Positions 54,455 through 57,432 of a DNA stretch of 64,000 bases are shown piece after piece (positions within the stretch are counted from its first letter, which is position 1; each line of letters opens with the position of its first letter). This DNA is from Bradyrhizobium sp. CIAT3101 (GTDB taxonomy: Bacteria; Pseudomonadota; Alphaproteobacteria; Rhizobiales; Xanthobacteraceae). The stretch covers positions 4,175,001 through 4,239,000 of the forward strand of contig NZ_CP121634.1 of NCBI RefSeq assembly GCF_029714945.1, written 5' to 3'. The notes beneath the pieces are model-generated. The model was not told where the DNA came from and made no database searches. It worked only from the letters and a program-made list of their open reading frames with translations. The position numbers and the translations under genes were made by a program.

Positions 54455-55651
54455 ATGAACGAGCAACCTGAACAGCTTCGCAACTTTACGATCAATTTCG
54501 GACCGCAGCATCCGGCGGCGCACGGCGTTCTTCGTCTTGTGCTTGAATTGGATGGTGAGGTCGTTGCGCGCGTCGACCCGCACATTGGTCTCTTGCATCG
54601 CGGCACCGAAAAACTGATCGAGCAGAAGACCTATCTGCAGGCGATCCCGTATTTCGACCGGCTCGACTACGTCGCGCCGATGAACCAGGAGCACGCCTTC
54701 TGCCTCGCCGCCGAGAAGCTGCTCGGCATCGAGGTGCCGCGCCGCGGCCAGCTGATCCGCGTGCTCTATTGCGAGATCGGCCGCATCCTGTCGCATCTTC
54801 TCAACGTCACCACGCAGGCGATGGACGTCGGCGCGCTGACCCCGCCGCTGTGGGGTTTCGAAGAGCGCGAGAAGCTGATGGTGTTCTACGAGCGCGCCTC
54901 GGGCAGCCGCATGCACGCAGCCTTCTTCCGCGTCGGCGGCGTGCATCAGGACCTGCCGCAGAAGCTGGTCGACGACATCGAAGCCTGGTGCGATCCGTTC
55001 CTGAAGGTCGTCGACGACCTCGATCGCCTGCTGACCGCCAACCGCATCTTCAAGCAGCGCAACGTCGATATCGGCGTGGTGCCGCTGAAGGAAGCTTGGG
55101 AGTGGGGTTTTTCGGGCGTGATGGTGCGCGGCTCGGGCGCGGCCTGGGACCTGCGCAAGTCGCAGCCCTATGAGTGCTACGCCGAGATGGATTTCGACAT
55201 TCCGATCGGCAAGAACGGCGACTGCTACGACCGCTACCTGATCCGCATGGAAGAGATGCGCCAGTCGGTGCGCATCATGAAGCAGTGCATCCAGAAGCTG
55301 AACGCAGCCGAAGGGAAGGGTGCCGTCGTCGTCGAAGACAACAAGGTCGCGCCGCCCCGCCGTGGCGAGATGAAGCGCTCGATGGAAGCGCTGATCCACC
55401 ACTTCAAGCTCTACACTGAAGGCGTCCACGTGCCGGAAGGCGAGGTCTATGCCGCGGTCGAGGCGCCCAAGGGCGAGTTCGGCGTCTATCTGATCTCGGA
55501 CGGCACCAACAAGCCCTACAAGTGCAAGATCCGCGCGCCGGGCTTTGCGCATCTGCAGGCGATGGACCACATCTGCCGCGGCCATCTGCTCGCCGACGTC
55601 TCGGCCATTCTCGGTTCGCTCGACATCGTGTTCGGAGAGGTCGATCGGTGA
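54455..55651 (+). CDS. nuoD: NADH-quinone oxidoreductase subunit D (49 kDa)
   Basis: A 398-residue subunit forming the quinone cavity with Nuo[20 protein letters not shown] and [19 protein letters not shown] are the conserved start; the reductive-site His is in HPAAHG and the quinone Tyr in the [16 protein letters not shown] region. The end is [20 protein letters not shown]. Its final TGA overlaps the ATG of the next gene (fkbM-type). Confidence 0.98.
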
Positions 55652-56613
55652 TGGCTCAGGCGCCAATCCAGTTTGACCGTGCCTCGGGGGCCCTTGAAGG
55701 GGCCAACCTGTGGGAGCGGACGGCTGCCTTGGCGCTGGTGACGGGGTCGAAGATCTCGTCGCATTTCTCGCATATGGGCTACATCGCCTGTGCGAATTTG
55801 CTGCGGAAGACGCTGCCCGAGCGCAACATCGCGATCAAGCTCAACCCGGACGCCGTGTTCGAATTCCCTTACGGCGACGGCTACTGGAGCAAGCTGCTCA
55901 ACCGTTCTTATTGCTACGAGGACGAGCTGGAGCTGCTGTTCGCCGACTCCATCGACGTCGACTACACGCTGCTCGATTGCGGCGCCAATTACGGCTACTG
56001 GTCGGTGCTGGTCTCGAGCAAGCCGTTCGGCTCGCACAAGTCGATCGCGATCGAGCCGTCGGGCCAGAACTATCCGAAGCTTGCCAACAATGCCCGCGTC
56101 AACGGCAACCGCTTCGAGACCCTGAAGTGCGCGATCGGCGCGGCGCGCGGCACCGCGCGCCTGTCGGGCACCAAGCACGAGGCCTTCAGCATCGCCGGCG
56201 CCCCGTCGGATGGCGGCGAGGACGTGCCCGTTCTGGCGCTGGATAACCTCATCGAGGACGGCAAGGTCCAGGCTACCGGCAAGTACCTGATCAAGCTCGA
56301 CGTCGAAGGCGTCGAGATCGAGGCGATCAAGGGTGGCGCCCGGCTGCTCCAGACCGACAGCGTCATCATGTGCGAGGAGCACGGCAGCGACCGCACGCAT
56401 GCGGTGTCGCGCTACATCCTCGAACAGACCCCGCTGAAGCTGATCGTGCTCGATCCGCGCACCAATCGGCTGGAGACCGTGACCGAGCTGTCGATCCTCG
56501 ATCGCATCAAGGTCTCGACCCACGTCGGCTACAACGTTTTCGGCACCGCAAGCGCATTCTGGCAGGACAGGATCAATGCCCTGAATGCGAAAACCGCGCG
56601 CCGCATGCAGTGA
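55651..56613 (+). CDS. FkbM-family methyltransferase inside the complex I operon
   Basis: A 320-residue SAM-dependent methyltransferase of the FkbM (Methyltransf_21) family. The SAM site is TLLDCGANYGYWSVLVS (about residues 108-124), the acidic strand is SIAIEPSGQNYPKLANNARV, and the family catalytic hallmark is LIKLDVEGVEIEAIKGGARL. Its ATG overlaps the nuoD stop (GTGATG; a GTG start is also possible) and it ends 10 bp before nuoE. It is therefore co-transcribed and probably translationally coupled. FkbM enzymes O-methylate sugars, lipids or natural products; a complex I role is not established. Confidence 0.9.
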   Translation: MAQAPIQFDRASGALEGANLWERTAALALVTGSKISSHFSHMGYIACANLLRKTLPERNIAIKLNPDAVFEFPYGDGYWSKLLNRSYCYEDELELLFADSIDVDYTLLDCGANYGYWSVLVSSKPFGSHKSIAIEPSGQNYPKLANNARVNGNRFETLKCAIGAARGTARLSGTKHEAFSIAGAPSDGGEDVPVLALDNLIEDGKVQATGKYLIKLDVEGVEIEAIKGGARLLQTDSVIMCEEHGSDRTHAVSRYILEQTPLKLIVLDPRTNRLETVTELSILDRIKVSTHVGYNVFGTASAFWQDRINALNAKTARRMQ

Positions 56614-56623
56614 GAGATAAGAC

Positions 56624-57235
56624 ATGTCCGTTCGCCGATTAGCACCGAAGGAAGTCCAGCCCGCGAGCTTTGCGTTCACGGACGAGAACCTTGCCTTCGC
56701 CAAGCAGCAGATCGCGAAATATCCGGCCGGACGCCAGGCCTCGGCCGTCATCGCCATCCTCTGGCGCGTCCAGGAGCAGCACGAGGGCTGGGTCTCGGAA
56801 GCCGCGATCCGCGCCGTCGCCGACCTGCTCGACATGCCCTATATCCGCGTGCTCGAGGTCGCGACCTTCTACACGATGTTCCAGCTCGCTCCGGTCGGCA
56901 AGAAGGCCCACGTCCAGGTCTGCGGCACCACGCCGTGCCGCCTGCGCGGCGCCGAAGACCTGATCCATGTCTGCGAGAGCCGGATCCATCACGATCCCTT
57001 CCATCTCTCCAAGGACGGCAATTTCAGCTGGGAAGAGGTCGAGTGCCTCGGCGCCTGCGTGAACGCGCCGATGGTGCTGATCGGCAAGGACACCTATGAG
57101 GACCTGACCAAGGAGACCTTCGGCAAGGTGCTCGATGGCTTCGCCTCGGGCAATCCGCCGAAGCCCGGTCCGCAGAACGGCCGCCAGTTCTCCGCGCCGG
57201 CGGGCGGACCGACCACGCTGAAGGAGACCTCCTGA
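56624..57235 (+). CDS. nuoE: NADH-quinone oxidoreductase subunit E (24 kDa)
   Basis: A 203-residue subunit carrying cluster N1a. The 2Fe-2S ligands are in [15 protein letters not shown] and [35 protein letters not shown] is the conserved thioredoxin-like start. The last 30 residues are a Pro/Gly-rich extension. It overlaps the next small gene (TGATG). Confidence 0.97.
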
Positions 57236-57432
57236 TGGGTCTTCCGACGAACCGGGGGAGCGAAGCCGTGAATAAATGGGGCTTCGTTGCCATGCATGCC
57301 GCGCTCGCGGCCGCCTTCATGTTCCTGCTGCAGCGCTTCGTGATGAACGCGACGCAGGAAACCAGTCTGCTCTGGGCGCTGACCTTCGCCGTCTGCGCCG
57401 CCGGGCTTGCCTACAAGCAGGCCAATCGTTGA
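57235..57432 (+). CDS. 65-residue membrane protein between nuoE and nuoF
   Basis: A protein with a polar start ([16 protein letters not shown]) and two helices (about residues 17-36 and 43-61), ending YKQANR. The ATG shares bases with the nuoE stop and a 15-bp gap separates it from nuoF, so it is an operon member. Accessory ORFs are known to be interspersed among complex I genes in alphaproteobacteria such as Paracoccus. No family is recognised. Confidence 0.8.
   Translation: MGLPTNRGSEAVNKWGFVAMHAALAAAFMFLLQRFVMNATQETSLLWALTFAVCAAGLAYKQANR

Follow-up and report, generated by a model that had tools for sequence, protein, structure and literature searches.

An FkbM-type methyltransferase gene lodged between nuoD and nuoE of the complex I operon in Bradyrhizobium and related families

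The nuo operons of alphaproteobacteria, which encode respiratory complex I, contain accessory reading frames, e.g., the unidentified reading frames (URFs) of Paracoccus, and such non-core genes are obvious candidates for factors that assemble or tune the complex. Here we describe a distinct FkbM-type methyltransferase subfamily which occupies the nuoD-nuoE junction in several families of the order Rhizobiales. The gene was followed up in a 64,000-nucleotide (nt) stretch of Bradyrhizobium sp. CIAT3101 (hereafter the window; contig NZ_CP121634.1, positions 4,175,001 to 4,239,000 of the forward strand). Like the Paracoccus URFs it is a non-core gene placed between core nuo genes, as are others at the junctions compared here, but unlike them it encodes a complete enzyme and recurs at a single junction across seven Rhizobiales families.

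The closest described enzymes belong to two families. With the FkbM family (PF05050/TIGR01444, e.g., PDB 2py6) the product shares the catalytic domain, motifs and fold, whereas the Pfam match covers only residues 109–247 of 320, the flanks carry residues conserved within the subfamily, and the gene lies in a nuo operon instead of a natural-product or glycan cluster. According to the available text of PMC9259500, FkbM enzymes act mostly on small molecules; EreM, classified solely as PF05050, methylates the backbone nitrogen of a ribosomal peptide and is the sole N-methyltransferase among the characterised FkbM enzymes of biosynthetic pathways, with which the available part of a review (PMC11285071) agrees. 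EreM itself stems from a cluster for a ribosomally synthesized and post-translationally modified peptide, and it is likened here to the nuo-operon enzyme by family membership. With this precedent for peptide use, the view of the preliminary description that FkbM methylation of a protein would be a novelty is out of date. The second family is NDUFAF7/MidA (PF02636), the arginine methyltransferase of NDUFS2, the human NuoD homologue (PMC3829151, available part), which is likewise tied to a NuoD-type subunit, but is a different family, encoded elsewhere in the genome and present with or without the FkbM gene. Existing public records label the protein 'FkbM family methyltransferase', and literature searches among openly licensed papers, which are no proof of novelty, showed no paper on an FkbM gene in a nuo operon among those listed.

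The gene and its place in Bradyrhizobium

The open reading frame (ORF) at 55651–56613 (+) encodes a complete methyltransferase of 320 amino acids (aa) between nuoD (NADH-quinone oxidoreductase subunit D, 398 aa, 54455–55651, +) and nuoE (203 aa, 56624–57235, +), both of which are NCBIfam equivalog matches above cut-off (NF004739 and TIGR01962 for nuoD, NF005724 for nuoE). Its ATG (55651–55653) has one base in common with the nuoD TGA (55649–55651), forming 'TGATG' at 55649–55653 (+), and 10 nt separate its stop (ending at 56613) from the nuoE ATG at 56624. The protein scored 49.2 bits against PF05050 (curated cut-off 22.7) and 75.4 bits against TIGR01444 (curated cut-off 37.7); PF05050 was the sole Pfam family at E ≤ 0.001, with no such match to PF02636. 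The product has the class I Rossmann methyltransferase fold with intact S-adenosylmethionine (SAM) motifs, its predicted structure having a mean predicted local distance difference test (pLDDT) score of 91.8. Residues D109, G111, A112, N113, G115, E135, K215-L-D-V-E-G220 and E222 are invariant across 25 aligned nuo-linked homologues (alignment A3); from what we know of the fold, we take them to be the SAM motifs, namely motif I (D109-CGANY-G115, 55975–55995, +), the acidic residue after the second strand and presumed SAM ribose contact (E135, 56053–56055, +), and the K215-LDVEGVE222 motif (56293–56316, +). The intact gene, its overlap with the nuoD stop, the 10 bp to nuoE and the SAM-binding motifs, all claimed in the preliminary description, were thus borne out to the base.

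Within the genus, the gene was present directly after nuoD by coordinates in 21 of 25 genomes of a first sample (own genome included), and a larger, partly overlapping draw gave 212 of 242 genomes (203 of the 228 of good quality) at E ≤ 1e−100, scoring presence and not position. With 212/242 genomes carrying it, the gene is stable in close relatives and not sporadic, whereas a sporadic occurrence is what the preliminary description had named as a refutation. Among named genomes, the best 80 of 225 relatives (79 labelled Bradyrhizobium, one Frankia) all have the order nuoD-methyltransferase-nuoE, so the arrangement is more than chance. The Frankia label (L029, 'Frankia sp. RB7') is probably wrong, as this genome has a Bradyrhizobium-type nuo locus and a 95% identical methyltransferase. 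Across 90 Bradyrhizobium-type loci (L001–L090) the 1-nt overlap with nuoD recurs in 89, and nuoE follows after 10–13 nt in 90/90. The exception to the overlap is L018 (Bradyrhizobium liaoningense), where 310 nt lie between nuoD and the methyltransferase; this insert (L018:5691–6000) is a small secreted-looking ORF whose end duplicates the nuoD 3' end, so that it still overlaps the gene that follows. Three genus genomes carry second nuoD copies (L095, L102, L103; 85–90% identical), with neither nuoE nor a methyltransferase within the surrounding 10 kb.

Distribution, losses and descent

In the family (Xanthobacteraceae), matches at E ≤ 1e−15 were obtained in 122 of 296 genomes and 18 of 47 genera. 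Ninety-eight matches were at least 60% identical, and in 91 of these no more than 20 nt lie between the last nuoD codon and the start of the gene; in one more (G127) the gene follows an insert, with 283 nt between the ORFs, and six had no nuoD position at first. For two of the six (L120, L122) linkage was then confirmed from the loci, while G106, G195, G254 and G261 stand outside the confirmed counts. Linked copies below 60% identity were confirmed as well (L109, L110, L112, L126, L127, L161, L162, L218), and by our count 16/47 family genera have a nuoD-linked copy. A profile search of the order matched 25 of 347 genomes, 13 inside the family and 12 outside, a total that may be low as at most six candidates were scored per genome. 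Nine of the 12 homologues outside the family adjoin nuoD (one each in families f11, f22, f25 and f28, two in f16 and three in f41), and three do not (one in f12, two in f24). The same-junction homologues of these six other families are just 35–42% identical, and nuoE comes next in eight of the nine; in the ninth (L179/L217) it lies about 2 kb further, beyond a helix-turn-helix gene, which together with a preceding small ORF (L217:2961–3916) is perhaps a toxin-antitoxin pair. In the class sample, 6/385 genomes matched, two of them in the genus; no nuoD or nuoE was seen in the surrounding DNA examined for the other four, which belong to other orders and one of which is a contig-end fragment. The close subfamily was co-located with complex I genes wherever checked, yet the gene is absent from many nuoD-bearing genomes.

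Thirty of the 242 genus genomes gave no match. We searched nuoD in 20 of these and obtained 17 readable nuoD-nuoE junctions, the other three being without full-length nuoD (G016, G1094 and G1097, with completeness of 89, 75 and 67). In all 17, 43–46 nt separate the last sense codon of nuoD from an intact nuoE, in a single alignable sequence that leaves a residual frame of 9–12 codons, starting on the nuoD stop in 16/17. The pattern resembles a single deletion passed down within one subclade. Since every readable gene-less junction of the genus shows this one scar with nuoE intact, the gene is, on genomic grounds, dispensable. Overall, it has been removed in several lineages with nuoD and nuoE undamaged. 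Elsewhere, gene-less junctions with spacers of 68–80 nt (L131–L135) occur in genera where other members have the gene, and at L104, L105, L137, L138, L145 and L146, which may never have had it, nuoE starts on, or one base past, the nuoD stop. One genome (G082, L124:4691–5314) has a methyltransferase that an in-frame internal deletion of the SAM core has reduced to 207 aa; residues about 121–236 are gone, the frame is still open and its start still lies on the nuoD stop.

Paralogues away from nuo are 43–58% identical. Several (L099, L150–L155, L159) sit in copper-resistance clusters, with neighbours confirmed by Pfam as multicopper oxidase, CopC and CopD (L151), CusF (L154) and OpgC (L153), and the remaining copper-cluster neighbours assigned from ORF appearance; two (L147, L156) lie near rpsL/rpsG/fusA, as judged by the look of the ORFs. 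Compensation for loss by paralogues is not a consistent pattern, an unlinked copy being present in G111, G126, G132, G168, G193, G260 and G298, and no match being found at E ≤ 1e−15 in G198, G252, G294 and G308.

In a 59-row tree (rooted at midpoint, part of the family group unresolved), 54 rows, i.e., all linked and most unlinked copies, split from five outer FkbM rows with a support of 98/90. The unlinked rows fall inside groups of linked rows and require no fewer than five changes, which suggests from the tree topology that copies moved out of the nuo locus; that the 24 linked rows of the family (excluding g40) form a single clade was rejected by the approximately unbiased (AU) test. Distances of the methyltransferase correlate with those of nuoD at r 0.82 for 34 rows, 0.80 for the 25 family rows and 0.63 for 23 family rows without g40 (in each case 0 of 2000 permutations as high), as well as at 0.69 for nine rows of other families (5 of 2000 permutations). 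The median ratio of nonsynonymous to synonymous substitution rates (dN/dS) in Bradyrhizobium, calculated for each gene on the largest same-length set (42–80 sequences, 45 for the methyltransferase), is 0.128 vs. 0.044–0.134 for nuoB–nuoG. Its distances follow nuoD and its dN/dS is low, marking the gene as old, mostly vertically inherited and under purifying selection. A recent foreign insert was ruled out, as the GC content (0.633) and third-position GC content (GC3, 0.879) are within the values spanned by the adjacent nuo genes and the distances follow nuoD. Copies that left the nuo locus gave no sign of faster evolution (root-to-tip distances, Mann-Whitney p 0.93, 24 linked vs. 17 unlinked rows), and the longest stem in the tree is that of the nuo-linked g40 copies. 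The simplest reading of these patterns is that an old insertion at nuoD/nuoE was passed on mostly by vertical descent, was lost many times and gave rise to copies elsewhere. As the recurrence across families possibly goes back to one insertion event, it does not count as independent evidence of a function.

The nuoD-nuoE junction also hosts unrelated inserts in relatives. Small ORFs with signal-peptide-like starts, similar by eye, were seen there in L109, L127 and L139, before or after the methyltransferase and, in L139, without it. A four-helix 23S_rRNA_IVP gene (PF05635) lies directly upstream of nuoD in two different families (L091:6943–7326, L217:57–419). In the window, a second overlapping accessory frame, a hydrophobic ORF of 65 aa (57235–57432, +) with no Pfam family over cut-off, fills the nuoE-nuoF gap, its start overlapping the final base of the nuoE stop.

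Substrate and role of the enzyme

The preliminary description had proposed that the enzyme may modify a complex I subunit, and this part found no support: the gene has clean losses with nuoD and nuoE intact, related genera have gene-less junctions, and no NuoB–NuoG residue that is conserved where the enzyme is present is changed in more than three of six loss lineages. The latter search, which covered NuoB–NuoG and not the membrane subunits (NuoF and NuoG with nine loss rows only), had its best columns changed in 3/6 lineages and yielded no candidate acceptor. A complex I subunit as substrate is therefore possible but unsupported. That the enzyme stands in for NDUFAF7/MidA was rejected, PF02636 being present in 17/17 genomes (seven with and ten without the FkbM gene at nuoD) regardless of that gene; the PF02636 gene of this genome lies elsewhere (G000:C1:7925709).

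We favour, at a probability of about 0.45, a co-expressed O-methyltransferase with a substrate other than a complex I subunit. Ribosomes finishing NuoD would start the methyltransferase, so that the enzyme, presumably cytosolic because no signal peptide was seen, would be produced steadily, at levels proportional to those of complex I. In the least certain step, its activity would be the usual FkbM-type O-methylation, directed at a small molecule, lipid or glycan, and the gene would be an old operon passenger of moderate, condition-dependent benefit. Its constancy of place weighs against such a passenger, as the same junction in 9/12 homologue-bearing genomes of the order outside the family and retention in 212/242 genus genomes would be expected if the gene were functionally linked to complex I. 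Such a link could be non-protein: the substrate would be a lipid, a glycan or a quinone-pathway compound required during complex I production, with NuoD-proportional expression holding the gene in place. This rather unlikely role would fit the junction linkage, the start on the nuoD stop and the same presence in the genus, the small-molecule habit of FkbM enzymes (PMC9259500, available text) and a paralogue (L153) that adjoins the glucan-modification gene OpgC, but no metabolic gene accompanies the methyltransferase at the nuo locus and the gene is dispensable.

A dedicated, non-essential protein methyltransferase that tunes assembly or stability through a peripheral-arm subunit (NuoD and NuoE being nearest in translation) is unlikely. 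The single junction in seven families, the start on the nuoD stop and co-inheritance with nuoD are in its favour, together with the existence of a peptide-acting FkbM enzyme (PMC9259500) and the methylation of NDUFS2 by NDUFAF7 (PMC3829151), again going by the available text; the clean losses with intact nuo genes, the missing acceptor in NuoB–NuoG and the paralogues away from nuo speak against it. Set beside this, the co-expressed passenger with another substrate appears somewhat likelier. It is highly improbable that the frame is retained chiefly as a translational spacer passing ribosomes from nuoD to nuoE: even if a 9–12-codon frame persists after loss, on the nuoD stop in 16/17 genus scars, and the truncated G082 frame stays open, the SAM-site residues are invariant, dN/dS is 0.128, and several relatives cope with nuoE on or next to the nuoD stop. 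A more specific proposal, which we consider distinctly unlikely, is a lineage-specific optional modification of complex I, in which the enzyme co-translated with NuoD would methylate a peripheral-arm subunit at a side chain, or at the backbone like EreM, and would later have been abandoned in several lineages, the copper-cluster paralogues performing the same chemistry on copper-handling proteins. If it is true, the lineages that abandoned the enzyme would provide natural with/without pairs.

The long comparative record of a gene kept, lost, duplicated and moved makes its role directly testable. If a subunit is methylated, this would be a new modification of complex I; if not, an unexplained metabolic enzyme would reside in the respiratory operon of many Hyphomicrobiales-type bacteria.
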